From Bacteroidia bacterium (GTDB lineage Bacteria; Bacteroidota; Bacteroidia; Bacteroidales; Dysgonomonadaceae): a DNA stretch of 13,995 nucleotides. The notes below the pieces were generated by a model. It worked only from the letters and a program-made list of their open reading frames with translations, searched no databases and was not told the DNA's origin. Positions 3-13,995 of this stretch are shown piece after piece (positions within the stretch are counted from its first letter, which is position 1; each line of letters starts with the position of its first letter). The stretch is taken from NCBI GenBank assembly GCA_025999435.1, contig BNXH01000043.1:1-13995 (forward strand). The letters are read 5' to 3'. A program made the translations under genes and the position numbers.

Positions 3-689
3 TGGTCTCCCAAACAGATACAAGGCCGTGCAAAGTTGGATGGCATAGCCATGGTCAGCCATGAACGTATCTATCAGTTTATACGGGCAGACAAGCAACA
101 GGGAGGCATATTGTGGAAGTATACCCGTCACAAATTAAAACATCGCAAACGCCCGGTAACAGGCAAACAGGTGAATATCAAAAATAAGGTATCCATAGAG
201 TTGCGTCCTGAAGTCGTTGATAACAGGCAACGCTACGGCGACTGGGAGATAGACACGATCATCGGAAAAGATCAGAAAGGTGCTATATTAACAATAACGG
301 AAAGAAAAACAGGCTTTTTGCTAATGGAAAAGCTTAAATATGGTAAACAGGCCGAACCTTTAGCCAGGGTCGTTGTGCGATTGCTGTTTGCCTATAAAGA
401 TACAGTACATACCATAACATCTGATAATGGAAGTGAATTTGCAGCACATGAATATATGGCAAAAAAATTAGATGCTGATTTTTATTTTGCACATCCTTAT
501 TCGTCTTGGGAAAGAGGCCTGAATGAATATACAAATGGACTGATCAGGCAATATATCATAAAAGGTTCGGATTTTGATTTATATGATGATAATTTTATAA
601 GGCTGATACAAAATAAGATAAACAGAAGACCTAGAGAAAAATTATGTTTTCAGACACCTTCTAAAATATTTTATGCATCTTTGAACTAA
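3..689 (+). CDS. IS30-family transposase, 5'-truncated by window edge
   Basis: This is the C-terminal 228 residues of a DDE transposase. The frame is open to the left edge, so the true start lies outside the window; the visible part opens with WSPKQIQGRAKLDG and MVSHERIYQFI, which fit the conserved 'WSPxQIxGR...VSHExIY' segment of IS30 transposases. The catalytic triad is visible, counting from the first codon here: D84 in DWEIDTIIG, D141 in TSDNGSEF and E175 in ERGLNEYTNGL, with 33 residues between the second Asp and the Glu as expected for the family. The C-terminus ends normally (KINRRPREKLCFQTPSKIF), so the visible part looks intact. It is followed at once by a probable terminal inverted repeat. 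It would catalyse movement of the element itself and has no role in the peptide cluster, apart from marking its edge. Confidence 0.93.
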   Translation, partial: WSPKQIQGRAKLDGIAMVSHERIYQFIRADKQQGGILWKYTRHKLKHRKRPVTGKQVNIKNKVSIELRPEVVDNRQRYGDWEIDTIIGKDQKGAILTITERKTGFLLMEKLKYGKQAEPLARVVVRLLFAYKDTVHTITSDNGSEFAAHEYMAKKLDADFYFAHPYSSWERGLNEYTNGLIRQYIIKGSDFDLYDDNFIRLIQNKINRRPREKLCFQTPSKIFYASLN

Positions 690-786: not shown

Positions 787-1695
787 ATGATAGAGCCTTT
801 AATATCAGTTGTTATACCTGTTTACAATCGTCCAGATACTTTAAAAAGAACTTTGGATAGTGTTGTTAAACAAACTTATTTCAATTTGGAAATATTTGTT
901 GTCGATGATGGCTCAGATCTTGATATATATCCAATTATTGACGAGCTAAAAGATAATAGGATATTTTATCATAAATTAGAACATAAGAATGCCAACGTTG
1001 CCCGTAATTATGGAATAGAAAAAAGTAAAGGACGATACATAGCAATGCTGGATGCAGATGATCTATGGTTGGAGAGCCATATTGAAGAGTGTTTGAAAAC
1101 ATTACAATTTTCTCAGGCTGATGGCTTATATGGAAGTCTTATTTTGAAAAATATAAATACAGGTCAAGAACGAATAGCCTCTGTAAGATATTTACATAAA
1201 GATGAAACCATGATTGATTATTTATTAAGTATGGGATATGGAGCCCAGACATCTACCCTTTTTATGACAGCAGAGAGTGCTGAATCTATATTGTGGAATC
1301 CAGTTTTAAACCGCCATCAGGATTATGATTTTGTCGTAAGATATAGCAAACAGTATCGACTGATACCTAAAACAGAACCGACAGTTATATATCTATTGGG
1401 AGAATCAAAGGAATTAAATATTGATTTTAACTCTTGCATTCAGGTTATAAGAGAAAATGAAGAAGATATCAGCCCAAATCTATATACTAGTTATAATATG
1501 AATATGCTTTTGTTAGCTAGACGCCAAAATGCCCCCATTGAAATTATCGAACATTATAAAAAAGAAGCCACTTATTACAAGGAATATATAAGTTTCTATC
1601 AGTTCCTGATCATAAAGCAGCCCCAGACCGAGGAAGAACAATTAAAGTGTAAAGATGAGTATATATCTTATATCTCGGAGATTCAACTAGAATGA
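787..1695 (+). CDS. GT2-family glycosyltransferase
   Basis: A 302-aa GT-A fold glycosyltransferase of family 2. The nucleotide-sugar binding half is complete: ISVVIPVYNRPDTLKRTLDS near the N-terminus, VVDDGS at residues 38-43, ARNYGI at about 72-77, and the metal-binding DxD motif as LDADD (D89-D91-D92). RHQDYDF (176-182) corresponds to the acceptor-side 'ED/QDYD' segment that carries the catalytic base in many GT2 enzymes. No membrane segment is evident, so it should be cytosolic or peripheral. The sugar donor and acceptor cannot be read from the sequence. It is the only gene here on the + strand between the IS30 end and the peptide cluster, and its last 9 bases overlap those of the convergent GT10 gene. 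It could glycosylate the cluster peptide or belong to an unrelated surface-glycan locus. The ATG at 779 is out of frame and stops at once, which supports 787. Confidence 0.88.
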   Translation: MIEPLISVVIPVYNRPDTLKRTLDSVVKQTYFNLEIFVVDDGSDLDIYPIIDELKDNRIFYHKLEHKNANVARNYGIEKSKGRYIAMLDADDLWLESHIEECLKTLQFSQADGLYGSLILKNINTGQERIASVRYLHKDETMIDYLLSMGYGAQTSTLFMTAESAESILWNPVLNRHQDYDFVVRYSKQYRLIPKTEPTVIYLLGESKELNIDFNSCIQVIRENEEDISPNLYTSYNMNMLLLARRQNAPIEIIEHYKKEATYYKEYISFYQFLIIKQPQTEEEQLKCKDEYISYISEIQLE

Positions 1696-2595
1696 AGGTT
1701 TGTTCTTGTTCCAAAATAGATGTATTAGATTGACTAGCCTTTCAAAAGGGTGTTTCTTTTGGTCTTCTATTAGAGACTTTAATCCACATTTCAGTGGATG
1801 TTTTCGCCACTCTAGTAAAGTATCATATAAAGAATTATCCTGGCAATATTCCTTGAGTCGTTCTGCTAACAGCTCCGGAGAATTATATTTTCTTACATCT
1901 ACGAATGAATTTTCTCCAGGAGAAAACTGTTCGATATTCGAAGCTCCAAGATAGACAGGGACAGAACCCATAATAAGAGGATCGAAGAATTTTTCAGTAA
2001 CATAATCCTCACTTATTGCATTCTCGAAGGCAATAGTAAATTTATACTGTTTTATAATATCCAGTTTTGTTGTATAACCAAGATCCACCTCTACAAAACG
2101 ATTCCGTTGCCATCGTCCATAAGAATCAATATCCAGATATTTCATTAATTCTGATAAATATTCTATCCGCTTACTATTGTTTACTGGGCTGGAAACAAAC
2201 ATGCAAATATCTTTAGTCTTTTTAGAGACAGGGCTATATAATTTATCTAAAAAGGAATAATCATAATAAGGCAATACAATATCTGAATCTAAATGGTATG
2301 TCATCCAAAGGTCAAACAAATCTTTCAGCTCGTCGGAAAACATCCATGGATAATTCGCTTCGCTTTCATAACTCCAGCCTATCCATAATTGATTATCAGG
2401 TTTTTCAATATCACCTTCCAAATCACTGGGTAGAAAAGGAATATTAAAAACGACTGCATCAGCAACAGGCAATAAACTTCGGTCGTATGTAATTTGCACA
2501 TCTTCGGGTAATATATTAGCAATATTATCCATGTCTAGCTGGTCATAGATAGAAAACCTTGTCCTTACAATTTTTCTATAAAATAATATTAGCAT
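1687..2595 (-). CDS. GT10-family (alpha-1,3-fucosyltransferase type) glycosyltransferase
   Basis: A 302-aa protein with the signatures of family GT10, whose known members transfer fucose from GDP-fucose to GlcNAc- or glucose-type acceptors. Seen in order: WSYESEANYPWM (74-85), matching the ESPxNYP region; FDLWMTYHLDSDIVLPY (94-110), close to the 'FDWTMTYRxDSDIxxPYG' motif; SKRIEYLSEL and IDSYGR (141-161); and the donor-site hallmark YKFTIAFENAISEDYVTEKF (184-203) followed by PVYLGASNIEQFSP. No signal peptide or membrane helix is seen, as in other bacterial GT10 enzymes. It is the last gene of the - strand run, 77 bases after the tandem GT2 gene, and overlaps the + strand GT2 by 9 bases at the 3' end. 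Position suggests it tailors the same product as its upstream neighbours, but a lipid-linked or capsular acceptor is equally possible. Fucose specificity is a family inference; some GT10 enzymes could use other GDP-sugars. Confidence 0.88.
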   Translation of the reverse strand: MLILFYRKIVRTRFSIYDQLDMDNIANILPEDVQITYDRSLLPVADAVVFNIPFLPSDLEGDIEKPDNQLWIGWSYESEANYPWMFSDELKDLFDLWMTYHLDSDIVLPYYDYSFLDKLYSPVSKKTKDICMFVSSPVNNSKRIEYLSELMKYLDIDSYGRWQRNRFVEVDLGYTTKLDIIKQYKFTIAFENAISEDYVTEKFFDPLIMGSVPVYLGASNIEQFSPGENSFVDVRKYNSPELLAERLKEYCQDNSLYDTLLEWRKHPLKCGLKSLIEDQKKHPFERLVNLIHLFWNKNKPSF

Positions 2596-2672
2596 AAGAA
2601 AATTTTCATCCTGATTGGTTTATGAAATAACAAAAAATAAGTGAAGTAGAAACACTCTTACTTGTCCTCCAT

Positions 2673-4391
2673 TTATATATTTTTCAAAAATGAATCAAAT
2701 ATACCTGTATTGAAATATTTCAGCTTTCGGTTTTGTTCTTTCAGGCTATTTATAACAGGGTATATATCAATATTCTGATCTTTAATCTTTTCTGATTGTG
2801 TCATCATCAGGGTAAATATCTTCTTTTCTTCTTTTGAAAGTATAAATCCGCATTTTTCTAAGTAATCAAGTCGGATTTGATTGGCATATTCTACCTGCTT
2901 TGCATAATATGCAGATGATATCTGTTTTTGATGTACACGATATTGCATAAGAATATCTCGCACATTCAAAATATTTCCCTTAAGAGCTATCTTACAAGCC
3001 AAATCGTAGTCGGATGCATAACGATATTTTTCGTTATAATATCCAACGGACGCTAAGACTTCTTTTCTTAGAATCAATGAAGGATGCAAAAAGACATTGT
3101 TAGACAACAACATAATTTTCAGTAGTTCGTAATCGCATGGTTTATAACATGTATATCCATTTGAAAAGACAAAGGCACTCCCATGTGCAAGTAATAACGG
3201 ATCATTTTCCATTACTTCAACCTGTTTTTCTATGCGGTTGGGCATGGCAATATCATCACCATCCATAACGCAAATATATTTACCTTTGGCTAGTTTACAT
3301 CCTTCATTCCTACGGACATAATTCCCTTTGTTTTCGGATTGATCTATAAAGATAATCCGATTATCCCAGATACTTTTTATTATCCCAGTGGTATTATCTG
3401 TCGAACCGTCATTGATAATAATAAACTCAAAATTAACATATGTCTGTGATAATATACTGTATATAGATTCTTCTATATAGCTTTCGACATTATATACAGG
3501 CATAACTACTGAAACTAAAGGGAACTCGGGTAAATCTCTTTTATTTAGGATTTGGTTCTTTGATAAAATGTTAGCGTATAATTCAAATACAACAGACTTA
3601 AAAGACTTAAAAGTTATCTTTCCTTGATTCAATAACTGAATAGAATTATCAAAATATTCATATAAACCCGGTTCTTCCTGAACAATCAGGTTCGATACAT
3701 ATTCGGTATATTGTTGCTGAATTAATAAAGTCGTCTTTTTTTGCCTTTTACTATGCTTCCTGGAAATCTGTTTCTGAGAAACCCTATATTGTAACAGTAT
3801 CTCAGGAATATTAGCAAACTTCAATCCATTTTTTATCAGGTCAACCCACAGTTTATAATCTTCTGCGTAGATATATTTTGATTTGTATAAATTAGGATAT
3901 AATTTACACTTCTGTAATGCCTCATTTCTCATTATAACTGTCGGATGGCATAGAGAATTGCCTTTAAGCAAATGTAAGGTAATATCATTATGTTTGACAG
4001 GTGATTTTATAATTCGTGACTCCACACCAAATGTTTCCATCCAAGAGCCACAAACGTCTGTCTCCAGATTATTTTCCATATATTGGTACTGGATTTTCAA
4101 TCGATGTGATAACATAAGGTCATCTGCATCCATTCTGACGATATATTTGCCTTTCGATATATTTATCCCTGTGTTTAAAGAGTGAATAAAATTATGGGGA
4201 TTTTCTATCAGTATAATACGGTTGTTAGAATATGATTTTACAATATCCCTGCTATTATCAGTCGAGCCATCATCTATAATAACCAACTCTAAATCGGTAA
4301 AGGTCTGGGACAGTATACTTTCAATCGATTTGTGCAGATAATTCTCTGCATTATATACCGGCATTACAATACTTATTTTGGGCTCTCCCAT
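2673..4391 (-). CDS. Two-domain (tandem GT2) glycosyltransferase
   Basis: A 572-aa protein with two complete GT2 domains in a row. Domain 1 (about 4-235) has ISIVMPVYNAENYL, IIDDGSTDNS (38-47), the DxD motif as MDADD (D88-D90-D91), HP at 149-150, AEDYKLW (176-182) and QYRVSQKQIS (201-210). Domain 2 (about 290-510) repeats the order: VSVVMPVYNVESYI, IINDGSTDNT (325-334), MDGDD (D377-D379-D380), HP at 436-437, ASDYDL (459-464) and QYRVHQKQIS (483-492). The match in order and spacing shows an internal duplication or fusion of related domains. Both keep donor-binding and DxD residues, so two transfer reactions are possible, either adding two sugars in turn or a repeating disaccharide. No membrane segment is seen. 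It starts 14 bases after the HlyD gene, so it is very likely co-transcribed with the exporter. Donor and acceptor are unknown. Confidence 0.88.
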   Translation of the reverse strand: MGEPKISIVMPVYNAENYLHKSIESILSQTFTDLELVIIDDGSTDNSRDIVKSYSNNRIILIENPHNFIHSLNTGINISKGKYIVRMDADDLMLSHRLKIQYQYMENNLETDVCGSWMETFGVESRIIKSPVKHNDITLHLLKGNSLCHPTVIMRNEALQKCKLYPNLYKSKYIYAEDYKLWVDLIKNGLKFANIPEILLQYRVSQKQISRKHSKRQKKTTLLIQQQYTEYVSNLIVQEEPGLYEYFDNSIQLLNQGKITFKSFKSVVFELYANILSKNQILNKRDLPEFPLVSVVMPVYNVESYIEESIYSILSQTYVNFEFIIINDGSTDNTTGIIKSIWDNRIIFIDQSENKGNYVRRNEGCKLAKGKYICVMDGDDIAMPNRIEKQVEVMENDPLLLAHGSAFVFSNGYTCYKPCDYELLKIMLLSNNVFLHPSLILRKEVLASVGYYNEKYRYASDYDLACKIALKGNILNVRDILMQYRVHQKQISSAYYAKQVEYANQIRLDYLEKCGFILSKEEKKIFTLMMTQSEKIKDQNIDIYPVINSLKEQNRKLKYFNTGIFDSFLKNI

Positions 4392-4405
4392 AATTTCTAT
4401 TTTTA

Positions 4406-5716
4406 TTATTCTAATCCTTCACTAACAGCTTTTCTAATTGGCATAATAAACCGTTCAAGGGCAGAGATATCCTTGGTTATGATATCCGCCTGCCCAGTCA
4501 TTTGAGGCAGATAAGGCAATTCCTTATTGTATGTCGTCATTAAGCCGTTTGGTAATTCTATTTCCACTGTATAATCGGCTGTTTCTTTCCCCTTGGTTGG
4601 TACAAGGGATATGTTCTTTACAATACCTTTTACGATTCCGTATTCGTTATCCGGAAAGTTCTCAAACCGGATATTTACTTTTTGTCCTATTTCAACTTTG
4701 CCTGAACGAGTTGCAGGTAATGATGCTTTCCCCAACAGTTGAACTTTGTCAGTAGGGATTACATTAAATATTTCTTCTCCAGCTGTTATATTCTGATTAG
4801 TCGCCCAATAGTTTGTAAATGTTATTTTGCCCTTGATCGGGCTCGATAGGGCATAGGTTAATTCCCATGATTGGATTTCGGATTGTAATTGGGTGATAAG
4901 GGTTCTTAATTTTGAGTTCAAGGTATTTTCCTTTTCTATATCCTGAGAATTGGCTTCAAACAGATTTTCTTTCATCTGGCCTATCTGGATCTTGCTATTA
5001 TCGACTGATGAAGTAATATTTTCATAAGACAGGATGCCTTGCAGGTATTGATTTTTTGTATTTTCCAATTCTTCATTAGACAGGACGCCTTTTTTGTTCA
5101 ATAAAGAATCTCTTCGATATTTACTTTTTGTGAGCAATAGCTGATCTTCTATTATTTTTCTCTGACGGATCTGGTTTGCCAATTGAGTTTCGTACTGGCC
5201 AATACGTTCGTTTATAATACGAGCTTTAGTTGAGTAATATTTTAATCGTCTATATTCTGAATATTCGAACAGAGTAAGATAGAATGCAGAGTAATTGGAT
5301 TGCAATGTCCCTAGTTGTAAATGTTTGGGCAACAAAGGAATCATCGTGTCTGCATCTAAGTTTATCTTATCCAGATACCCTTTGAGCAAAAGTATATCTT
5401 TTGTCTCAGCCGGATTTTCTATTATGGCCAGATATTGACCTGCTGCTACAAGTTGATTATCATCGATATAAAGTTCTTTCAGTTTACCGGATGACTTGGC
5501 CACAATGGTTGCAGGCGGAGTAGAGCCTGTTAATGTTACGGAGGAAGATATGATATCAGGATACTTGAATATTGCACTGCCTATAAGCAGCATAACAATG
5601 ATAATGGCAAGAACGGTTATACCCCAGCGTAATATCCAATGGGGAACTGTTCCCAGTACATCCTGAAACTCTTCACTCCTTAATTCGATTTTATCTTCTT
5701 CTTTATCTGGCATCAT
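4406..5716 (-). CDS. HlyD-family periplasmic adaptor of the peptide exporter
   Basis: A 436-aa membrane fusion protein expected to link the inner-membrane ABC exporter to a TolC-type outer-membrane channel. It has a short cytosolic N-terminus, one membrane helix (about 28-50, WILRWGITVLAIIIVMLLIG), then a first half of a biotinyl/lipoyl-like domain (about 70-105, ATIVAKSSGKLKELYIDDNQ), a long alpha-helical hairpin rich in Gln, Glu and Lys (about 150-290), the second lipoyl half (SSPIKGKITFTNYWATNQNI) and a C-terminal beta-barrel region ending in PYLPQMTGQADIITKDIS. Length and order fit adaptors paired with peptidase-containing transporters. Its ATG overlaps the stop of the transporter gene by four bases (ATGA), which indicates translational coupling. 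The second codon is also ATG, so the start may be one residue later. No outer-membrane partner gene lies in the window. Confidence 0.92.
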   Translation of the reverse strand: MMPDKEEDKIELRSEEFQDVLGTVPHWILRWGITVLAIIIVMLLIGSAIFKYPDIISSSVTLTGSTPPATIVAKSSGKLKELYIDDNQLVAAGQYLAIIENPAETKDILLLKGYLDKINLDADTMIPLLPKHLQLGTLQSNYSAFYLTLFEYSEYRRLKYYSTKARIINERIGQYETQLANQIRQRKIIEDQLLLTKSKYRRDSLLNKKGVLSNEELENTKNQYLQGILSYENITSSVDNSKIQIGQMKENLFEANSQDIEKENTLNSKLRTLITQLQSEIQSWELTYALSSPIKGKITFTNYWATNQNITAGEEIFNVIPTDKVQLLGKASLPATRSGKVEIGQKVNIRFENFPDNEYGIVKGIVKNISLVPTKGKETADYTVEIELPNGLMTTYNKELPYLPQMTGQADIITKDISALERFIMPIRKAVSEGLE

Positions 5717-7941
5717 TGTCCTAACTCCAATTGATTCTTAACCAATGTATAATAAGCTCCTTTCTTTTCCGTGAGTTTTGTGTGTGTACCTTCTTCTATC
5801 ACTTTACCTTCCTCCAGTACAATGATATTATCAGCATTTTGGACAGTACTTAGTCTGTGTGCTACAATAACTACAGTCTTTCCCTTGTAGAACTCATTGA
5901 GGTTATCCATAATGATGCGCTCGTTATTGGCATCCAGAGCATTGGTGGCTTCATCGAAAAACAGGTATTCAGGGTCTTTGTATACCGCACGGGCTATAAG
6001 CAGGCGTTGTCGTTGCCCCTGGCTGATGCCGTTGCCTTCCATCCCTATTTTAGTATTATATTTTAATGGCAGAGACTCGATAAACTCTTTTATATTGGCT
6101 ACAGTTACGGCATGAAGTAATTTCTTTTTATCGACGCTATCTTCTCCTACGGCAATATTATTGGCTATGGTATCGGAAAAGATAAAGCCATCCTGCATAA
6201 CCGCTCCTGATTTCTGTCGCCATAAATGAGGGTTGATATCACTGACCGGGGTTTTACCTACTTTCAGTTCGCCTTTTAATGGCGGATAAAAACCAAGCAG
6301 TAGTTTTATTATCGTTGTCTTACCACTGCCGCTTGATCCGACAATAGCTGTAACTTTATTCTGTGGAATTCTTATACTCAGCCCATCCAGAACATAATCC
6401 CTGTCGGCTCCGTCATAATTAAAATAAACTTTTTCCAATGATAAACTTTTATCATCCGGTAAATCGTTAATCTTATCGTTAATAGTCTGTTCCTCGTCTT
6501 CTTTGTTATGTATTTCATTTAGCCGTTCTAGGCTTATCTTTGCATCCTGAAGTGACTGGGCAAAACCGATAACTTGTCCGATAGGCCCTGACAATTGACC
6601 GATAATATAGCTTATCGACATCATCATCCCTAAAGTGATATCTCCGTCTATTACCGCTTTAGCAGATAAGAAGGAAACAAACACGGATGTCGTCTGGCTG
6701 AAGAAGATGGATCCCAGTTGCTGGTATTGTCCGAGTGCAGTGCCTTTAATGCTGATTTTGAATAGTTTTACCTGTATACGCTCCCAACGCCAGCGTTGTT
6801 GTTTTTCGCAGTTGTTGAGTTTTATTTCCTGCATGCCTGTAACTAGTTGTATCAGGCTTCCCTGGTTGGCTGACGACTGGGCAAAGCGCATATGGTCTAG
6901 TTTGCGTCTGTACCGCATAAAAAATAATATCCATGCTACATAGATTGTGTTCCCGACTAAAAAAACAAAGAAAATAGTCAGGTTGTAATAGGCTAGTATA
7001 ATAGCGAAAATGAAAAAATTGAAGAATGAGAATAGGGTTGTCAGGGTCGAACCTGTCATAAAGGCTTGTATACGGCTGTGATCACCTATCCGCTGCATGA
7101 TATCCCCAATATTCTTAGCATCGAAAAATCGGAGAGGCAGCTTCATCAGTTTGGTTAGGAAATCAGATATCAGGGTAATACCTATACGGGTATTTATGTG
7201 TAAGGATATCCAGCTGCGGATAAACTCAACTCCCATTTGAGTTACAAATAATACCAATTGTGCTATTAACACAAGAGTAACGAAACTGAGATTATTATTT
7301 CCTATACCCTGGTCTACTACTGCTTGTGTCAGGAATGGGAATATCATGGACAAAACACTGCCGATAAGCATACCAACAACCAATTGTATAATCTGGCTTT
7401 TATACGGGCGAAGGTATCCCCAGAAGTAGCTCAGGTTTTTCTCCTGTTTCTCCTGGTCGTCTTCCTGATGATAAAAATCGGGAGTCGGCTCCAGAAAAAG
7501 GGCTGTACCTGTATCTTTATTGTCCTGCTTACTGCTGAGCCAACATTTAAGGAATGCGACTTTATCCATTGTGTATTTCTCACCACCGGGATCGGATATT
7601 TGTATGGAATATTCAGAATCAGAGCTGCTAAAAAGTTTTTTCTTCCTTTTTATACCGTAACAGACGACGAAATGGTTCTGGTTCCAATGCAGAATACAAG
7701 GTAAATGGACGTCCTCTACGAGTTGCTCAAAATTGATACGCACCCCCTGTGTATGAAATCCGATACTTTCTGCGGCATCGCTTATCCCCAGCATAGAGAC
7801 GCCTTCACGGGTAATGAAGCTTTTCTCACGCAGGGTCTGTAGGCTGTAGCTACGACCGTAATATTTGGCTATCATCCGCAGACAGGTAGGGCCACAGTCC
7901 ATAGAGTCTAACTGGGTGTAGTGGGGAAAGGTGCTTTTCAT
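5713..7941 (-). CDS. Peptidase-containing ABC transporter (PCAT, C39 peptidase)
   Basis: A 742-aa bifunctional exporter that cuts double-glycine leaders and pumps the core peptide out of the cytoplasm. The N-terminal C39 peptidase (about 1-145) has Q10 and C16 in YTQLDSMDCGPTCL, H90 in NHFVVCYG and D117 in ISDPGG, so the catalytic set is complete. The membrane domain (about 175-470) carries hydrophobic helices such as LVVGMLIGSVLSMIF and FFNFFIFAIILAYY. The nucleotide-binding domain has Walker A GSSGSGKT (535-542), a signature motif in the variant form ISQGQ (639-643), Walker B YLFFDEATNALD (659-670) and the switch His in IVAHRLS (H695). Length is normal for a PCAT. The precursor at 13565-13852, with its GG leader, is the obvious substrate. 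The gene is coupled by a 4-bp overlap to the adaptor gene but is separated from the upstream GT4 gene by 327 bases, so it may have its own promoter. Confidence 0.96.
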   Translation of the reverse strand: MKSTFPHYTQLDSMDCGPTCLRMIAKYYGRSYSLQTLREKSFITREGVSMLGISDAAESIGFHTQGVRINFEQLVEDVHLPCILHWNQNHFVVCYGIKRKKKLFSSSDSEYSIQISDPGGEKYTMDKVAFLKCWLSSKQDNKDTGTALFLEPTPDFYHQEDDQEKQEKNLSYFWGYLRPYKSQIIQLVVGMLIGSVLSMIFPFLTQAVVDQGIGNNNLSFVTLVLIAQLVLFVTQMGVEFIRSWISLHINTRIGITLISDFLTKLMKLPLRFFDAKNIGDIMQRIGDHSRIQAFMTGSTLTTLFSFFNFFIFAIILAYYNLTIFFVFLVGNTIYVAWILFFMRYRRKLDHMRFAQSSANQGSLIQLVTGMQEIKLNNCEKQQRWRWERIQVKLFKISIKGTALGQYQQLGSIFFSQTTSVFVSFLSAKAVIDGDITLGMMMSISYIIGQLSGPIGQVIGFAQSLQDAKISLERLNEIHNKEDEEQTINDKINDLPDDKSLSLEKVYFNYDGADRDYVLDGLSIRIPQNKVTAIVGSSGSGKTTIIKLLLGFYPPLKGELKVGKTPVSDINPHLWRQKSGAVMQDGFIFSDTIANNIAVGEDSVDKKKLLHAVTVANIKEFIESLPLKYNTKIGMEGNGISQGQRQRLLIARAVYKDPEYLFFDEATNALDANNERIIMDNLNEFYKGKTVVIVAHRLSTVQNADNIIVLEEGKVIEEGTHTKLTEKKGAYYTLVKNQLELGQ

Positions 7942-8268
7942 TTACTATATTTTAATTTTGCTAATTCACTAGTATAATATCTTCTCATGAAATCATAAAG
8001 TACTAGCTCACATCCGTTTTTTTGATTGAAAAAAATAACCTAACATTGTATAAGAGTCTGTTTAAATTTAATATTCTGAAAAGATTATTGCTCCAAATTC
8101 GTGTATAAAGCTAGCTTTTTTAGCAGTAAAATTGTACTGAAAACAGGATAAGTTCATCTCTAAATATCTATTTCAATAAAACCTTGAAAAGTCTAATCAT
8201 TGATACAATTATTCATATACTAATAACACTATCATTATCCATTGAGAAGTTATTCTAGTATTTTTCTT
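7942..8268. other. 327-bp non-coding gap between exporter and modification genes
   Basis: This AT-rich stretch holds no gene of normal size. I looked for the - strand promoter form (CAAAnnTA as read on the + strand) and found none, and no clear terminator hairpin follows the GT4 stop. What can be seen is a 29-codon open frame on the - strand (8068-8157) that ends immediately before the sequence GAGTCTGTTTAAATTTA (8054-8070, + strand), which looks like an IS-type end. The gap splits the otherwise compact - strand run in two. Confidence 0.6.
8068..8157 (-). pseudogene. Short open frame, possible tail of a decayed insertion sequence
   Basis: The frame would encode a 29-residue peptide, with core residues YNFTAKKASFIHEFGAIIFS, and is open for five more codons upstream of its ATG before a TGA. 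Its TAA is followed directly by ATTTAAACAGACTC. A transposase C-terminus ending at the element's terminal repeat would look like this, and GAGTCTGTTTAAA resembles ends of IS5-like elements as I remember them. No transposase motifs remain, so it may equally be random sequence. Confidence 0.22.
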
Positions 8269-9516
8269 TTAGGTTATCTGTACTATTAGTTTTTTATATT
8301 TATCCTTCATTATTCCATTCATATATTTCCATTCATATGTTTTTCTTGCTTCGTACCCTAATTTATGACACAGTTCAGATGATTGTAATAATTCTATAAT
8401 AGCTTTAGCCAGATTGTGCTGGTATTCTTTTGTATGCTTTCGATTACCAATCTTTGCAATTTTAGCATTTATATTATTAAACATATTGTTCAGACCTAAT
8501 CCATCGGAAACAACTATTGGAAGTCCAAACATCATCATTTCGATACCAGCATATGTACATTGTTCATAATATGACGAAATAACTCCAATATCAGCAATAG
8601 AAAGCCATTTATTTAAAGTTATCCTATTAATCTGCCCAGTTAAAATAACTGATGTCGCTATTGGTGATATTGTATTAACAATTTTTTTCATAGATACTTC
8701 ATTACCATCGCCAACTATAACAAGTTTTACATTTGGATGGCATTTTAATACAATAGGCATTGCTGCTAATAGATCGAATATTCCTTTTTGTCTTGTCGGC
8801 CGACCAATAAATAGTAAAATCTTATCTTCTTTTCGTAAATGCAAACTTTTTTTAGTATCTTCTCTTTGAGAGATGTCAGATATTTGTCTTCGCTTTATAT
8901 CCCGAAGCCCATTAGAAATATAGAATATCTTATTCTTGTTTATTTTATAGATGTGTTCCAATACAGAAAATGTATCTTTAGACAAACAAATAATGTAGTC
9001 TGCACATTCGAACATCTTTTTATCTTTTTTATACATTTCAAAAATAGAGTTCATATAAAGTGACGCTTGGCCGGCAGTTGTAACGGAAATCTTTTTTAAA
9101 ATTCTATTATATTCTTTTAGATTACCCAGAAGTGGCATAGTCCATACAAAATCATGAATAGTAAAGACAATTTTGGACAATGGAAAATGTATTTTTAATG
9201 ATTCCAAAAGATCTCCACAAGGTGTATGATTGATGAAAAAGACATTCTTTGAACTATCTTCAATATATAATCTTAAAAATTTATCAATTACTCCTACTAG
9301 ATGTATAAAATGGTCTTTCATTACAGGAAAAAGTATTTTTTTTATACTCTTTTCTTCTAAAATTTTGAATTCTTCTGTTTCTGCATTAAAAACGATTAAG
9401 CAGACATTGAATTCTAATGAATTAAAGCAATAGAGTAATTCTCGAAGATAAGTACCTATTCCATTTTTTTGGGAACTGACGTACTCGTCTAATATATAAA
9501 TATTTTTCTTTTTCAT
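8269..9516 (-). CDS. GT4-family glycosyltransferase of the peptide system
   Basis: A 415-aa GT-B fold enzyme. The N-terminal half has the glycine-rich NGIGTYLREL (18-27) and TIHDFVWTMPLLGN (119-132). The C-terminal donor-binding half has LLFIGRPTRQKGIFDLLAAM (234-253), LVIVGDGNE, and the E-x7-E motif of retaining GT4 enzymes, E318 and E326 in YYEQCTYAGIEMMMFGLP. The protein has no membrane segment. In Bacteroidales a GT4 subfamily is a known companion of radical SAM enzymes and GG-leader precursors (I recall a TIGRFAM model 'glycosyltransferase, GG-Bacteroidales peptide system', TIGR04157), and the HDxxW...GN segment here fits my memory of it. The ATG overlaps the stop of the LanC-like gene by four bases, so the two are translationally coupled. 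That coupling makes it the best candidate for glycosylating the precursor. Sugar and site are unknown. Confidence 0.88.
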   Translation of the reverse strand: MKKKNIYILDEYVSSQKNGIGTYLRELLYCFNSLEFNVCLIVFNAETEEFKILEEKSIKKILFPVMKDHFIHLVGVIDKFLRLYIEDSSKNVFFINHTPCGDLLESLKIHFPLSKIVFTIHDFVWTMPLLGNLKEYNRILKKISVTTAGQASLYMNSIFEMYKKDKKMFECADYIICLSKDTFSVLEHIYKINKNKIFYISNGLRDIKRRQISDISQREDTKKSLHLRKEDKILLFIGRPTRQKGIFDLLAAMPIVLKCHPNVKLVIVGDGNEVSMKKIVNTISPIATSVILTGQINRITLNKWLSIADIGVISSYYEQCTYAGIEMMMFGLPIVVSDGLGLNNMFNNINAKIAKIGNRKHTKEYQHNLAKAIIELLQSSELCHKLGYEARKTYEWKYMNGIMKDKYKKLIVQIT

Positions 9517-10226
9517 TCTTGTCTTCTTGCATTTATTGCATTAAATAGTATACCTGCTAATCCATTCCTTAATCCTATCGGATAAGAAGATATTTTATTC
9601 TGCAAATTTATCATTTCAACCGCCACAAAATGCGATGCTCCTGTAATATTGTAGTTCACAATATGTTGAGTCGTGTGAAAAGTTATGTAAATATCTAATA
9701 ACAGTTCTAGTCTTTTGTTTATATTTTGTTGTTTCAAAGTCATACCCAATTCATATAGGTCGGATAAGTACATCTTGTCGAAAGGGAATTTTGTCTGTTG
9801 CTTTATCGCTCCCTGTAAGTGATATATTACATAATGTAATAATCCTTCAATACCGTTTTCTAAGGACAAGTCTGAAATCCTTTTTATATCTATTTCCATT
9901 ATACGCTGATCTATTTCCTCACAGATTTCAACACTATCTCCCTCTATATATCCTTGTTGTATTAAATTCTCTATACCCCATCCAATGCCAGTCAACCCAG
10001 AAGCGAATGATAGAGCTAAATCCCCATTTATCCCCTCTGACATATTATTTAAAAGAAATGAAGCTACATCAAAATATACTTTGTTACCCATATATTTAGA
10101 ATATTCAGACATTACTAATGCAATACCCATCTGACCATACCACAGGCTAATGTCAGTAATAAAATACGAGTTTAGCATTAAATAATGAGCTATTCGTTTG
10201 TCATCTTCAAATTTTTGTGAAACCAT
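9513..10226 (-). CDS. Short LanC-like protein lacking zinc ligands
   Basis: A 237-aa protein with the repeating glycine-pair pattern of the LanC alpha/alpha-barrel: GQMGIAL (31-37), SGLTGIGWGIENLI (76-89), NGIEGLLHY (124-132) and NGLAGILF (221-228). The segment GIGWGIENLIQQGYIEGD closely fits LanC-like proteins I recall from Bacteroidetes peptide clusters. Classical LanC cyclases are about 400 residues and bind zinc through two Cys and one His (including a CH pair); here there is only one Cys (C102) and no CHG motif, so zinc-dependent lanthionine cyclisation is not expected. No LanB or LanM dehydratase is present either. It may hold or present the precursor for the radical SAM enzyme or the coupled GT4. 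The frame is open for 16 codons upstream of the ATG but without a start codon or LanC-like sequence, so I keep 10226. A gap of 226 bases separates it from the radical SAM gene. Confidence 0.78.
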   Translation of the reverse strand: MVSQKFEDDKRIAHYLMLNSYFITDISLWYGQMGIALVMSEYSKYMGNKVYFDVASFLLNNMSEGINGDLALSFASGLTGIGWGIENLIQQGYIEGDSVEICEEIDQRIMEIDIKRISDLSLENGIEGLLHYVIYHLQGAIKQQTKFPFDKMYLSDLYELGMTLKQQNINKRLELLLDIYITFHTTQHIVNYNITGASHFVAVEMINLQNKISSYPIGLRNGLAGILFNAINARRQE

Positions 10227-10452
10227 AATATATAATATTGGGAAGTATAAAAAATCAGAATATAAGTTCCAATGTCACTTTGTTCATATCACAATTTTTA
10301 TCTAGTATAATATTTCACGGTTTTGATACGGAAATTTTCAAGTTTAATAATTAGTTTTAAATTACAAAATACTTTATATTGTAACACTCTTCTTGACATA
10401 TTATACAGGGTTATCTCACAGTTATTGGAGAGTAATAAGGGAACTGAAAATA
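10227..10452 (-). other. Non-coding spacer between radical SAM and LanC-like genes
   Basis: An AT-rich spacer with no consensus -7 box on the - strand and no strong hairpin. A 33-codon frame (10298-10399) is present but is Lys/Arg-rich without family resemblance or a ribosome site, so I do not call it a gene. Confidence 0.5.
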
Positions 10453-11793
10453 TCAGGTCATGAGAGGTTCACCTCTATTTTGCTCAATATAGAATTTTAG
10501 AAATTCCGGCAAATATCCTTTATAATAAATACATGGGTTATTTCCTCCATTCTCAAATTTATTCTGTATTCTTTGAATTGGGCATCCCCCACCACAAATA
10601 GGCAGGTATTTACATTTCACACAAATGGCATCCTCCAAAGGATCTGCCCCATATAATTGACGATTAATGTTTGTTTCATTAAATTCTGTCAATTCCCCTT
10701 CAGAATTTAATCTGCCTATTGCATATTTTTTATTACCTATTACTTCCCAACATTTATATGCATATCCTTCGGGATCAAAGGAAATAGCCACATTATTCCT
10801 AATTGCACATTCTCCAAATTGACGATTAGGATATCTAACATACGGGGTTTTTATTCCTTTATGCGCTAACATTAGCATGTGTTTTGAGCGCTCATTATGG
10901 TTAAATAATGTTGAAGCTGGTGAATCTCCACTTTTACATTCAATAGTTCCTCTATCTATAACGAAAGATGGAGAAATCGTAATATTCTTTTGAGGAATGA
11001 ATGTTTTCCGAAATAACTCTAATAGTTGTTCATATTCATGAGCATTCTTTTTTGTTAGGTTAACTCTAATTGTAACCTTAATGTCTGGGGCCAGTTCATA
11101 TAGCAATTTAATATTGTTCCAAACTTTAGAGAAAACATCTTCACTATCCGGCAAGAACTTGATCTGATTGTGAGTTTCTTTCGTTCCGTCTATTGTTATT
11201 TGCATAGAACTAATGCCGATTTTTTTTAATATTTCAATGACATTTTTATCAATATGATATCCTGTTGTAATAATATCATAGTCTATAGTCTTAGTCCATG
11301 TTTTAGAGAGTTTTTCATTAAACTCAATCATTTCTTTTAAACCCATTAATGGCTCTCCTCCAAACCATGTAAGTTTAATTATTTCAATACAATTTTGAGC
11401 ATTAATATATTTGATAATTGAGTCAATTATTTCAGAGGTCATATATTTTTTATCTTTGTATTTTTCAAAGCAATAAAAACAATTGAAACAACAATCCATC
11501 GTTGGCGCAAGCGTTAAATGAAGAAATTTAGTTTGTTCCCGCATTTTTTTTATTATCGCTTTATACTTTAAATAATCATCTTCATCATTTTTTGTAACAA
11601 TCCCATTTTCTAATAAAGTATTATATAATTCTTCATCTAATACAATATTAGACGCCTCTATATTATTTTCATTTTCTTTAAGATCAAAATATGATTGTTT
11701 ATCTATTTCAACAAGAGCATTTGAAAGAGAATTATATACAAAGAAATTGATATTATTAATATGGAAAAGAAACGTATACCTCGAAATTTTCAT
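10453..11793 (-). CDS. Radical SAM/SPASM peptide maturase
   Basis: A 446-aa radical S-adenosylmethionine enzyme with a SPASM domain, the class that modifies ribosomal peptides (thioether, C-C or epimerising chemistry). The N-terminal 90 residues are of the kind seen in peptide maturases and may bind the leader. The SAM cluster motif CxxxCxxC is C101, C105 and C108 in PTMDCCFNCFYC, followed by WFGGEP (143-148) and ITIDGTKETHN (199-209). The SPASM domain shows C329-x13-G-x4-C348, then C391-x2-C394-x5-C400-x3-C404 in CVKCKYLPICGGGC, and C421 in NNPCIYY. That is the canonical set for two auxiliary iron-sulfur clusters. The protein looks complete. It lies 148 bases after the HExxH gene and 226 bases before the LanC-like gene, all in one direction. 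Its substrate is most likely the precursor at 13565-13852. The type of bond formed cannot be read from the sequence; with six core Cys, sulfur-to-carbon thioethers are plausible. Confidence 0.95.
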   Translation of the reverse strand: MKISRYTFLFHINNINFFVYNSLSNALVEIDKQSYFDLKENENNIEASNIVLDEELYNTLLENGIVTKNDEDDYLKYKAIIKKMREQTKFLHLTLAPTMDCCFNCFYCFEKYKDKKYMTSEIIDSIIKYINAQNCIEIIKLTWFGGEPLMGLKEMIEFNEKLSKTWTKTIDYDIITTGYHIDKNVIEILKKIGISSMQITIDGTKETHNQIKFLPDSEDVFSKVWNNIKLLYELAPDIKVTIRVNLTKKNAHEYEQLLELFRKTFIPQKNITISPSFVIDRGTIECKSGDSPASTLFNHNERSKHMLMLAHKGIKTPYVRYPNRQFGECAIRNNVAISFDPEGYAYKCWEVIGNKKYAIGRLNSEGELTEFNETNINRQLYGADPLEDAICVKCKYLPICGGGCPIQRIQNKFENGGNNPCIYYKGYLPEFLKFYIEQNRGEPLMT

Positions 11794-11941
11794 TTTAATT
11801 TATTTTTAAATAATTAACAAAAAACTTATTTTACTGTGGTGAAAATCTTATTTATCTTTCCTTTATTTTAATTTGACAATAAATTAAATACACTAATACA
11901 GAGGTATAATATTCGTTTTTCAATAAACTCATGAAAGGACG

Positions 11942-13324
11942 TTAAAAAAACACAATGTTACAGTTGACATCATTATTCAATTTACAGAATGCGGAAGATT
12001 GAAAAGAATTAGGGTTTAACGTAAAACCGAACTTGTCGTCTTTATCTTGTTTTCCCATCTTCGATTCCAATTTTATAATAAAATTATATTTATCATCACT
12101 CCATTTAATGTTATTAAAATCGACTGGTAATGGCTTGCATTCAGGTGGAATACCGCTAAACCCATAAGAATTGTTCATTGGTTGCGAAAATGTAATTATT
12201 ATCTGATCAAAACCTTCCAAACTAGCACCGGGAGCAGGGAAAATGTTTGTTATATACGGCTTGGAATACTCAAATTCTTTCATTACAAATTCAAAATTAT
12301 TGGCCTTATATTGCAAAAAAGAAATAAGTTGTGGCATGAAGTCCTCAATAGATGGGTAACGCTCTCTATTTAAATAAAAATTATTCATAAAATCCATACT
12401 ACTTTTCATCCATATAAAACCTTTATGAATATTGTTGGCAAGTTCAAACTCTAATGGTTTATAATTTATTTGTTTTAGATACAATAGAACAAATAAATTG
12501 TTTAACCATTCTAAAACCATTGTTTGTGGATTACTATATCCCGATTGATGCATCTGTTTTTTAACAAATGGATAAATTCTATTTGCGGCGTCTGTCATTT
12601 CATCCCAAAAGGAATAAAAAATCAAATTTGAATAATGATGCGATATTTCATGCGCTAAAACAGGAAGGGTTTGTGAATTTGGAGCAGGTAATCCATTCTC
12701 ATCTCCTTTTACTCCAATTATAACACCCCCAGGAAATGCATAATTGTGGCGGCCATTAACAAGGCTTATATAAATATCAACATCTAAACTGTCTACTTTA
12801 CCATAAAACGAATTTAACCATTCAATGTTGAAGTCAACAAGATATTTATTTATGCGCTGTTCGGCGATTTCATATATGCTCTTATGATTATTAAAGAATT
12901 TATTAAAATTACTTTCTTTATAAAACTGATTAAGCATATTTATATATTCCATAAATAATTCTTCATTCCAACGCGAATCTATTTCTATTAAATTAGAGAT
13001 ATTATACTTATGGCTTAAAGTTATTCTCCCTTTTTTTATTTCCAAATGAGCTGTTGCATTAGAAACTGCATTAAACCCAATATGATACTTTTGATTAAGT
13101 TCTCGTACAAATTCAACAGGCTTAGTTAACTCGTAAGGAGTAAAATAGCTTATTATATCCTGTTTATAAGATGGAATTTTACTCTCACAAAATTCAGGCA
13201 CTCCAGCTAAAGCAAAAATTATACTAGTAAGTTCAAAACGTTCATCAACATGCACATTTATTTGTGCTCGTCCAATATAAACATGGCATAATAAAATAAT
13301 GAACAGTAAATATTTTTTTCGCAT
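11942..13324 (-). CDS. Exported HExxH metallopeptidase-like protein, DUF4932-type
   Basis: A 460-aa protein with an N-terminal signal peptide (basic MRKK, hydrophobic YLLFIILLCHVYI, probable cut after A20 in GRA-Q). The Cys at 13 lacks a good lipobox (ILLC), so a soluble periplasmic product is more likely than a lipoprotein. The start of the mature part, VDERFELTSIIFALAGVPEF (26-45), recalls the Bacteroidales family I know as DUF4932. A zinc-protease motif is present: HEISH (225-229) in PVLAHEISHHYSN, with E272 in MVLEWLNNLF as a possible third ligand. Near the C-terminus, FPAPGASLEGFDQIIITFSQ (362-381) followed by PM resembles a Big_5/Ig-like domain. The gene lies between precursor and maturase, which is unusual for a housekeeping peptidase. 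It could process the exported product, act on its target, or give immunity. Catalytic activity is inferred from the motif only. Confidence 0.8.
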   Translation of the reverse strand: MRKKYLLFIILLCHVYIGRAQINVHVDERFELTSIIFALAGVPEFCESKIPSYKQDIISYFTPYELTKPVEFVRELNQKYHIGFNAVSNATAHLEIKKGRITLSHKYNISNLIEIDSRWNEELFMEYINMLNQFYKESNFNKFFNNHKSIYEIAEQRINKYLVDFNIEWLNSFYGKVDSLDVDIYISLVNGRHNYAFPGGVIIGVKGDENGLPAPNSQTLPVLAHEISHHYSNLIFYSFWDEMTDAANRIYPFVKKQMHQSGYSNPQTMVLEWLNNLFVLLYLKQINYKPLEFELANNIHKGFIWMKSSMDFMNNFYLNRERYPSIEDFMPQLISFLQYKANNFEFVMKEFEYSKPYITNIFPAPGASLEGFDQIIITFSQPMNNSYGFSGIPPECKPLPVDFNNIKWSDDKYNFIIKLESKMGKQDKDDKFGFTLNPNSFQSSAFCKLNNDVNCNIVFF

Positions 13325-13513
13325 TATTAAATATGTGTTATGTAAGTTGAATAATTCGGATTCATTTGTAAAACATACAAATTATTAAGTTATGAATTAG
13401 TTTATTCACAAATATTGAACCTCTTTTGAAGAGTCTAGAAAAATAACAATAATTGACCAATTTAAAAGCATGTAAAATCCATTTTATAAAGGATTATAAC
13501 TTTGATTCATTAT

Positions 13514-13551
13514 AGCTCCAATAATCATCTTAAAAGATAGTTATTGGAGCT
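13514..13551 (-). terminator. Long hairpin 13 bases after the precursor gene
   Basis: AGCTCCAATAA (13514-13524) pairs perfectly with TTATTGGAGCT (13541-13551). The stem continues inward with a G-T pair, one mismatch and ATCT/AGAT (13527-13530 with 13535-13538), leaving a four-base loop. It stands 13 bases past the precursor stop and 189 bases before the next gene. On the - strand it is followed by ATAATGAATC, not by a run of T, so it is not a standard intrinsic terminator. It could be a leaky terminator or an RNA 3'-end stabiliser that keeps precursor message above that of the enzymes, an arrangement common in peptide operons. Confidence 0.55.
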
Positions 13552-13564
13552 CTTTAGGCTTATT

Positions 13565-13852
13565 CTATAGATCTCCTCCATAGAAACTTCCTGTGCCACA
13601 ACTAGTACTCCACCAACCAATACCCATACAAGTACTATCCCCATAGTTCATATCTTTACCACATAGAACAGATGAGCCGTCACTCTCATATCCTGTCGGC
13701 ATTGCTGATGGTCCACATGAGGTATAATGCGTCGGAGGATAACCCGAACAAGCATTATAGGGAGAAGACACAGTACATGTCGTTCCTCCACGCAAATCTT
13801 TCATTTCTTCGTTAAGAAGTCGACTTTTAACTAAAATTTTAAACTTTTTCAT
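13565..13852 (-). CDS. Double-glycine leader peptide precursor (RiPP candidate)
   Basis: A 95-aa precursor. The leader is residues 1-23 (MKKFKILVKSRLLNEEMKDL then RGG), with the EEMKxLxGG ending typical of Bacteroidales GG-leader precursors; the exporter's C39 peptidase should cut after G23. The 72-residue core has six Cys (C26, C35, C46, C64, C75, C85), 12 Ser, 9 Thr, 12 Gly and 6 Tyr, one Lys and no Arg. Short motifs recur: YTSCG (43-47), DSTCMG (72-77) and STSCG (82-86). It is the first gene of the - strand run, which holds a radical SAM/SPASM enzyme, a LanC-like protein, glycosyltransferases and PCAT/HlyD. The Cys may form disulfides or radical SAM thioethers, and Ser, Thr, Tyr or Cys could carry sugar. 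I do not recognise the core sequence. No Shine-Dalgarno site or consensus promoter is seen upstream; only 89 bases separate it from the divergent gene at 13942. Confidence 0.88.
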   Translation of the reverse strand: MKKFKILVKSRLLNEEMKDLRGGTTCTVSSPYNACSGYPPTHYTSCGPSAMPTGYESDGSSVLCGKDMNYGDSTCMGIGWWSTSCGTGSFYGGDL

Positions 13853-13941: not shown

Positions 13942-13995
13942 ATGGGACGTAAGGTAAAACAACTAAAGAATTACACTACCGAACAGGTAGAGGCG
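13942..13995 (+). CDS. Start of a gene cut by the window edge, possibly a transposase
   Basis: Only 18 codons are visible: MGRKVKQLKNYTTEQVEA. The basic start and the following 'YTTEQVEA' would suit the first helix of a helix-turn-helix domain, and I recall similar starts in IS630-like transposases of Bacteroidetes, but this is too short to assign. A good -7 box lies upstream. It is transcribed away from the peptide cluster. Confidence 0.4.
   Translation, partial: MGRKVKQLKNYTTEQVEA

Follow-up and report, generated by a model that had tools for sequence, protein, structure and literature searches.

A candidate glycosylated radical SAM peptide locus that appears to join a DUF4932-type core to a glycosylation module in Bacteroidales

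The closest described relatives of the locus analyzed here are peptide gene cassettes of Bacteroidales. A cassette built around TIGR04149, a precursor family with a Gly-Gly (GG) leader, was described in the available part of one paper (PMC4573289). Fernandez-Cantos et al. 2023 (PMC10352776) list in their Table 1 a radical SAM enzyme, a LanC protein, and a peptide S-glycosyltransferase together in 41 of 1,340 Bacteroidales regions, and the accessible text adds LanC proteins lacking zinc residues in three Bacteroidales clusters and glycosyltransferases (GTs) in BGC3. In the portion at hand of a further paper (PMC5410138), DUF4932 is called a putative metalloprotease and clusters with a radical SAM/SPASM protein. 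Our subject is contig BNXH01000043.1 of assembly GCA_025999435.1 (Dysgonomonadaceae), a metagenome-assembled genome (MAG) 51% complete; the window is the entire contig of 13,995 bases, cut on both sides. It encodes a GG-leader precursor, a SPASM maturase, a DUF4932 protein, an exporter, a LanC-like protein, and several GTs, and we hold it to be, very probably, a peptide pathway. In the best reading, a DUF4932 core is combined here with a glycosylation module found in other GG cassettes.

Gene content and the peptide core

Open reading frame (ORF) lists and domain scans give nine co-directional minus-strand ORFs spanning 13852 to 1687, as a preliminary description of this DNA had reported. The features are as follows.

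13565..13852, minus strand: GG-leader precursor peptide, 95 aa, with a leader of 23 aa ending RGG and a core of 72 aa holding 6 Cys
13514..13551, minus strand: strong RNA hairpin directly 3' of the precursor gene, -19.5 kcal/mol, z -4.63, 0/200 shuffles equally stable
11942..13324, minus strand: DUF4932 protein, 460 aa, DUF4932 at 230 bits, with HExxH (225-229) and Glu272
10453..11793, minus strand: radical SAM/SPASM maturase, 446 aa, with CxxxCxxC and a SPASM Cys block
9513..10226, minus strand: short LanC-like protein, 237 aa, LANC_like at 23.5 bits, just above the cut-off of 23.2
8269..9516, minus strand: GT4 glycosyltransferase, a TIGR04157 relative with EX7E, its gene overlapping the LanC-like gene by 4 bp
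5713..7941, minus strand: PCAT, a C39 peptidase-ABC exporter, 742 aa, C39 Cys and His present
4406..5716, minus strand: HlyD-type membrane fusion protein, 436 aa
2673..4391, minus strand: two-domain GT2 glycosyltransferase, 572 aa, D[AG]DD in each domain
1687..2595, minus strand: GT10 (alpha-1,3-fucosyltransferase family), 302 aa, no transmembrane stretch
787..1695, plus strand: further GT2 glycosyltransferase, convergent with GT10, 302 aa

Every domain that the preliminary description named was found; of the nine genes that it counted, eight are named in it, the DUF4932 gene between precursor and maturase being passed over. Beyond the 1687-13852 span that it gave lies a fifth GT domain, the plus-strand GT2, which overlaps the end of the GT10 gene by 9 bp. 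The two 4-bp overlaps that it saw are those of LanC/GT4 (9513-9516) and PCAT/HlyD (5713-5716). Elsewhere in the run the gaps measure 240, 148, 226, 327, 14, and 77 bp, with 327 bp between GT4 and PCAT, 14 bp between HlyD and GT2, and 77 bp between GT2 and GT10. Pattern searches on the window proteins located catalytic motifs, including EX7E in the GT4 and D[AG]DD in each of the three GT2 domains. A hydropathy scan of the GTs, the LanC-like protein, and the SPASM protein found no transmembrane stretch, and these proteins look cytosolic. PADLOC gave no match for the four proteins submitted to it.

The filing of the locus as a GG-Bacteroidales system, proposed in the preliminary description, was not supported. 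TIGR04148, whose cut-off is 300 bits, does not rank among the top 25 of the 52 models scored against the maturase (the 25th scores 46 bits); the TIGR04148 maturases of three comparison loci (L221, L234, L295) reach 517-531 bits. The nearest NCBIfam models, Clo7bot, TIGR04463, and CefB, all score under cut-off. No TIGR04150 pseudo-radical SAM protein occurs among the ten window proteins scanned, the contig ending on both sides and a more distant copy being possible. We compared 20 maturase relatives of at least 43% identity (43-58%; L010-L029, L029 partial), drawn from the best 80 of 213 in named genomes. DUF4932 is the next gene in 18 of them (exceptions L022 and L029; a 166-aa piece in L028), and a GG precursor lies at most 3.5 kb upstream of the maturase in 18 (exceptions L021 and L029). 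PCAT is present in 17 and HlyD in eight, many contigs ending early, and TolC-type genes follow HlyD in L014, L018, and L023. Because DUF4932 and GG precursors each recur in 18 of 20 relatives and GTs in one, we read the core as a DUF4932-type radical SAM peptide system, not a canonical TIGR04148/TIGR04150 one, and the GTs as an added module. The window shows the order of GG precursor, DUF4932, and related SPASM enzyme by which this grouping is defined in the present analysis. Two or three DUF4932 genes or pieces occur per locus in L010, L011, and L023, and each of the two in L011 is preceded by a precursor. Viral contigs scanned with the maturase alignment held only 35 distant loci, at 33% identity or less, which were not used.

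GG leaders were detected by a profile built from leaders of loci already read; TIGR04149 scores the window precursor at 24.5 bits against a cut-off of 25. Several Cys of its core lie within aromatic-x-[ST]-C units. Across 23 precursors of the DUF4932 type, the window's included and each with 5-8 Cys, an aromatic residue stands at -3 from Cys in 52/135 cases (14.2 expected) and Ser or Thr at -1 in 63/145 (29.1 expected). These repeated units are likely cross-link sites, the type of bond being predicted. A hairpin 3' of a precursor gene is a common device for making precursor in excess of enzyme, and the one seen here may be an attenuator or terminator.

A core motif, GYxSDGS, is common to the otherwise unrelated precursors of L051, L070, L083, L013, and the window, where it reads GYESDGSS. 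In an exploratory count, with L001, L069, L072, L104, L165, L219, and L260 dropped as duplicates or near-copies, it turned up in five of 85 regions, each of them containing a GT4 (L051 without LanC), and it is possibly a sugar site. As a general glycosylation motif it was rejected, given that 24 of the 80 regions without it also hold a GT4 (p 0.0036, found post hoc).

Recurrence of the glycosylation module

TIGR04149 precursors are present in 41 of 118 Tannerellaceae genomes. In that family, LanC occurs in 35/60 GG regions against 0/20 controls (Fisher p 9.5e-7), GT4 in 20/60 against 0/20 (p 0.002), and GT2 in 23/60 against 1/20 (p 0.004). The 60 regions come from 31 Tannerellaceae genomes chosen for GG precursors, some sharing one contig, and include 11 that hold no GG precursor by our in-house profile; the controls were placed elsewhere in five of the 31 genomes. 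Matches to GT2, GT4, GT10, LanC, and DUF4932 in these and all other loci rely on profiles built in the present analysis, with bit thresholds of 40 for LanC, 150 for GT4, 40 for GT2, and 25 for GT10.

The window GT10 matches Glyco_transf_10 (PF00852) at 118.8 bits and holds an FEN...YVTEK block, which we take to be the GT10 donor site; phmmer against solved structures retrieves FUT9 (E 1.8e-30) and a glycoprotein 3-alpha-L-fucosyltransferase A (E 4.2e-32). At E 1e-20, its own genome alone among 101 genomes of the family carries a relative. At 1e-40, one other of 393 sampled genomes of the order does (G262); there, GT10 and GT2 precede a GG precursor and a TIGR04148 maturase by 5-6 kb, and the 20 kb read contain no LanC. 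The two-domain GT2, at E 1e-80, is found in 1 of the 393, its own, with three candidates per genome scored.

Where GT10 genes lie argues for a link with peptides. The 31 Tannerellaceae genomes contain 14, and three fall within the 60 GG regions, which make up 0.76% of the sequence (binomial p 1.5e-4). Surroundings were read for 12 of the 14 (G528 and G514 left out), in genomes preselected for GG precursors. Four of these GT10s, 45-49% identical to the window's (L220, L221, L234, and L296, the last with LanC only), have a GG precursor or LanC near; the eight others, at 29-36% identity, have neither by in-house profiles, a split with a chance of 1 in 495 by hand calculation. In a GT10 tree, eight GG/LanC-associated sequences (the window's and seven more, two from Bacteroides) separate from eight others with branch support of 97/94, and 0 of 500 label shuffles gave as clean a division; the tree has 32 rows, and the 16 without known surroundings fall on the GG/LanC side of that branch.

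The GT4 aligns over its full length to TIGR04157 (338.5 bits, E 5.5e-101; subfamily cut-off 400), and at E 1e-40 it has relatives in 8 of the 101 family genomes, its own included. In eight other GT4 loci (L100-L107, two from one genome), the gene or domain immediately upstream is LanC-like every time, with a 4-bp overlap in five; the size of an overlap depends on the start codon, taken as the first in every ORF. LanC is likewise directly upstream of 32 of 48 GT4 genes scoring at least 200 bits, a set that includes repeats or near-copies (L013/L104, L051/L165/L260, L069/L070/L072). Within the same genus, L102 has LanC, GT4, PCAT, and HlyD in the window's order and a GT2-LanC fusion further upstream, and L103 combines three GG precursors, a SPASM-type radical SAM gene, PCAT, HlyD, LanC, GT4, and three GT2s.

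Fusions of GT10 to GT2 (L220), GT2 to GT10 (L296), GT4 to GT2 (L232), GT4 to radical SAM (L255), and GT2 to LanC (L102) tie the enzymes of the module together. The L255 frame (4494-6518) unites a TIGR04157 GT (498 bits) with a radical SAM domain in 674 aa, in a single MAG where an assembly effect is possible. L221 runs in the order GG precursor, TIGR04148, TIGR04150, beta-propeller-type protein, LanC, GT4, GT10, GT2. L234 has a GG precursor, TIGR04148, TIGR04150, and a GT2 that includes a LanC portion, recognized by in-house profile only, and ends in an exporter remnant, a 49% relative of the GT10, and a 62% relative of the opposite-strand GT2. Further relatives of that GT2 occur in the GG cassettes L103 (55%) and L107 (54%, partial), and we regard the window copy as probably part of the cluster. 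In Bacteroides fragilis Q1F2 (L070; NZ_CP018937, 1-21245), a cassette carries LanC, GT4, a GG precursor, radical SAM genes, a cytidylyltransferase, GT10, GT2, a sulfotransferase-like gene, LanC, and PCAT, with at least three LanC-like genes beside the radical SAM genes. The glycosylation module seems to be something other than stray capsule DNA. Since GT10 relatives recur in further cassettes with GG precursors or LanC, and two are GT2 fusions, the earlier proposal that GT2 and GT10 belong with the GG-peptide exporter is probably right.

Several observations weigh against this reading. By in-house profiles, a GT or LanC-like gene accompanies one of the 20 maturase relatives (L013), and six others (L010, L014, L018, L020, L023, L025) extend about 5 kb or more past HlyD with no GT there; another locus from the genus, L305, has part of a maturase at the end of its contig, then PCAT broken into two frames and HlyD, and no GT over the next 5.7 kb. 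The preliminary description had held that homologous precursor-maturase-exporter sets lacking the tandem GT2 and GT10, with those genes in capsule loci instead, would speak against it; such sets do mostly lack GTs, but the close GT10 relatives with read surroundings sit in other peptide cassettes. The complete gene order, for which it had suggested looking, was found in no other genome. Since GTs are undetected in 19 of 20 core relatives, the link between core and GT set depends on this contig and on weak coincidences of contig size. The GT2 and GT4 families are large and their substrates diverse, and intergenic gaps of 77-327 bp make transcription as several units possible. GT10 taken per region is not significant on its own (6/60 against 0/20, Fisher p 0.33), three of the six being weak matches at 26-63 bits. 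Bacteroides fragilis S82 (L072) does without a GT10 in what is otherwise nearly the L070 cassette, which marks the enzyme as dispensable there. GDP-fucose usually arises through GDP-mannose dehydratase; this enzyme turned up in 23 of 25 genomes of the genus, and the window's own MAG, 51% complete, is one of the two in which none was found.

Equal-size contigs carrying homologues outside the window's own genome were tried as a further link and not relied on, being weak: 16727 and 5158 for maturase/GT2, 5918 and 9166 for GT2/GT10, and 5576 for maturase/GT10. Above 5 kb, 0.29, 0.18, and 0.21 such coincidences were expected (p 0.034, 0.012, and 0.19), and without the size cut the p values are 0.18, 0.11, and 0.58.

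The composition of the contig is uneven. G+C is 0.37-0.42 in the exporter genes, 0.41 in the precursor, and 0.29-0.34 in the DUF4932, maturase, LanC-like, and GT genes, in keeping with a mosaic origin. The 327-bp gap at 7942-8268, where gene G+C shifts from 0.29 in GT4 to 0.42 in PCAT, is likely a module junction. At the left end (3-689, plus strand) lies a partial integrase-core gene, presumably IS30, with rve at 31.5 bits, just below the Pfam cut-off; at the right end (13942-13995, plus strand) a further ORF begins, MGRKVKQLKNYTTEQVEA. The contig may break inside mobile elements at both ends.

Proposed pathway and alternative readings

We lean, on balance, towards a secreted Cys/Tyr-rich peptide that is cross-linked, glycosylated stepwise, cleaved, and exported, and while the sequences themselves show the gene content, the intact motifs, and the recurrence and fusion of the modules, we infer each chemical step, the sugars and their sites, and the product's function. 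The SPASM enzyme would bind the GG-leader precursor and cross-link its Cys-rich core, probably through thioethers at the aromatic-x-[ST]-Cys units. The LanC-like/GT4 pair, working in the cytosol, would place a first sugar on the core, the LanC-like protein serving as an acceptor-holding partner; that the GT4 acts on the peptide is probable. The two-domain GT2, the plus-strand GT2, and the GT10 may then lengthen the sugar chain, a step that we favor somewhat over its absence; the GT10 would draw on a GDP-sugar, its predicted donor being GDP-fucose, to attach a fucose-like residue. Fucose itself is a tentative assignment, and the multi-sugar and fucose parts of the preliminary description are likewise predictions. 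The PCAT peptidase would cleave after GG, and the glycopeptide would leave through PCAT, HlyD, and a TolC-like protein encoded elsewhere. Outside the cytoplasm, the DUF4932 protein could act as a zinc peptidase that trims the product or acts on it to protect the producer.

In the foremost alternative, the peptide is cross-linked and perhaps bears one GT4 sugar, and the GT2, the GT10, and the GT2 on the other strand form an independent fragment of surface-polysaccharide genes that came to lie beside the exporter by chance. The scarcity of GTs among core relatives (19/20 without), the strand of the GT2 at 787-1695, the transposase-like integrase-core gene adjoining it, which makes rearrangement plausible, and the abundance of GT2s in Bacteroidales would fit. 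Relatives of the GT10 and GT2s nevertheless recur in other GG/LanC cassettes, fused to each other, the eight other Tannerellaceae GT10s have no GG precursor or LanC near by in-house profiles, and the HlyD-GT2 gap is only 14 bp; we consider this alternative unlikely.

Less probable still is that the GTs and LanC-like protein modify another partner, such as a secreted lipoprotein or DUF4932 itself. Bacteroidetes have a general protein O-glycosylation, and several loci hold secreted or lipoprotein-like genes among the cassette genes, their N-termini judged by eye. Such partners look secreted whereas the GTs look cytosolic, the GT4-radical SAM fusion (one MAG) points to a common substrate, and GYxSDGS accompanies GT4 in five cassettes in the exploratory count.

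Equally improbable, in our estimate, is that DUF4932 is an iron/alpha-ketoglutarate HExxH enzyme oxidizing the peptide. The protein has a hydrophobic N-terminus resembling a signal peptide and a C-terminal Ig/CopC-like domain. It shows the gluzincin motif of HExxH with a downstream helix Glu: H225, E226, H229, and E272 are invariant in 20 aligned rows, and Glu272 lies within helix 266-285 of the structure model. Foldseek with that model gave no PDB match at E 0.001. A secreted zinc metallopeptidase is likely.

A true lanthionine cyclase and a lanthipeptide product are very improbable: the LANC_like match just above the Pfam cut-off and the weak best folds, among them LanC/LanCL (Foldseek; no PDB match at E 0.001; model pLDDT 78, middling), stand against a length of 237 aa compared with about 400 in LanC/LanCL structures, no C...CH zinc motif by pattern search, no Cys or His conserved throughout an eight-row alignment, no dehydratase among the scanned window proteins, a relative fused to GT2 in L102, and zinc residues likewise lacking in LanC-like proteins of three Bacteroidales clusters in the available text of PMC10352776.

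Relation to known systems

With the GG-Bacteroidales cassettes (TIGR04149, TIGR04148, TIGR04150, TIGR04157), the window shares a GG leader, the LanC-like and GT4 pair, and PCAT/HlyD export, and some of those cassettes hold the same GT10 subfamily and GT2s. It differs in having another maturase family and an adjoining DUF4932 gene, and in that no pseudo-radical SAM gene was found. The regions of PMC10352776 combine the same enzyme classes (radical SAM, LanC, GT), as far as its accessible text goes; its main text contains neither a word beginning with fucosyl nor DUF4932, and we noted no GT10 extension there. Unlike the window, 29 of the 50 DUF4932 clusters in the available part of PMC5410138 add a lanthionine dehydratase and an S41 peptidase, with no glycosyltransferase given there.

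Compared with ranthipeptide and sactipeptide maturases (Clo7bot TIGR04334, CefB NF038107, PapB), the window SPASM enzyme aligns at near full length to Clo7bot and CefB but scores far under the cut-offs, and in the precursor the spacing between Cys is about 10 residues, with aromatics at -3. In mycofactocin biosynthesis, MftF adds an oligosaccharide and the pathway also uses a radical SAM enzyme. We know of no GT10, LanC-like/GT4 pair, or GG-leader export for mycofactocin or the persiathiacins. Both are ribosomal peptide products bearing several sugars in the text at hand, mycofactocin a cellulose-like chain on a redox cofactor (PMC7491314) and persiathiacins a polyglycosylated thiopeptide (PMC11406533), and such multi-sugar products are known but seemingly rare.

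The locus looks like one of a wider, little-described kind of peptide in Bacteroidales. Tentatively, and short of even confidence, we propose a broad modular class of oligosaccharide-bearing ribosomal peptides, in which a swappable module of LanC-like acceptor holder, TIGR04157-type GT4, GT2s, and a dedicated peptide GT10 would be grafted on unrelated radical SAM cores, DUF4932-type here, with the Bacteroides fragilis cassette adding a cytidylyltransferase (CMP-sugar synthetase-like) and a sulfotransferase-like gene; secreted peptides would thus carry fucosylated, host-like glycans. If such glycopeptides exist, the role of LanC-like proteins without a zinc site and the identity and placement of the sugars become testable, and one could ask whether the peptides act between gut bacteria or toward the host. 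The fusions and the GT10 subfamily offer direct handles for biochemistry.

Among the matches listed in our search of openly licensed papers, no GT10-bearing or fucosyl ribosomally synthesized and post-translationally modified peptide (RiPP) of Bacteroidales was found, nor any multi-sugar ribosomal peptide carrying a GT10 sugar. Clusters of radical SAM, LanC, and GT genes and oligoglycosylated RiPPs are already known; set beside the matches listed, what this locus would add is the GT10, candidate fucosyl, version.

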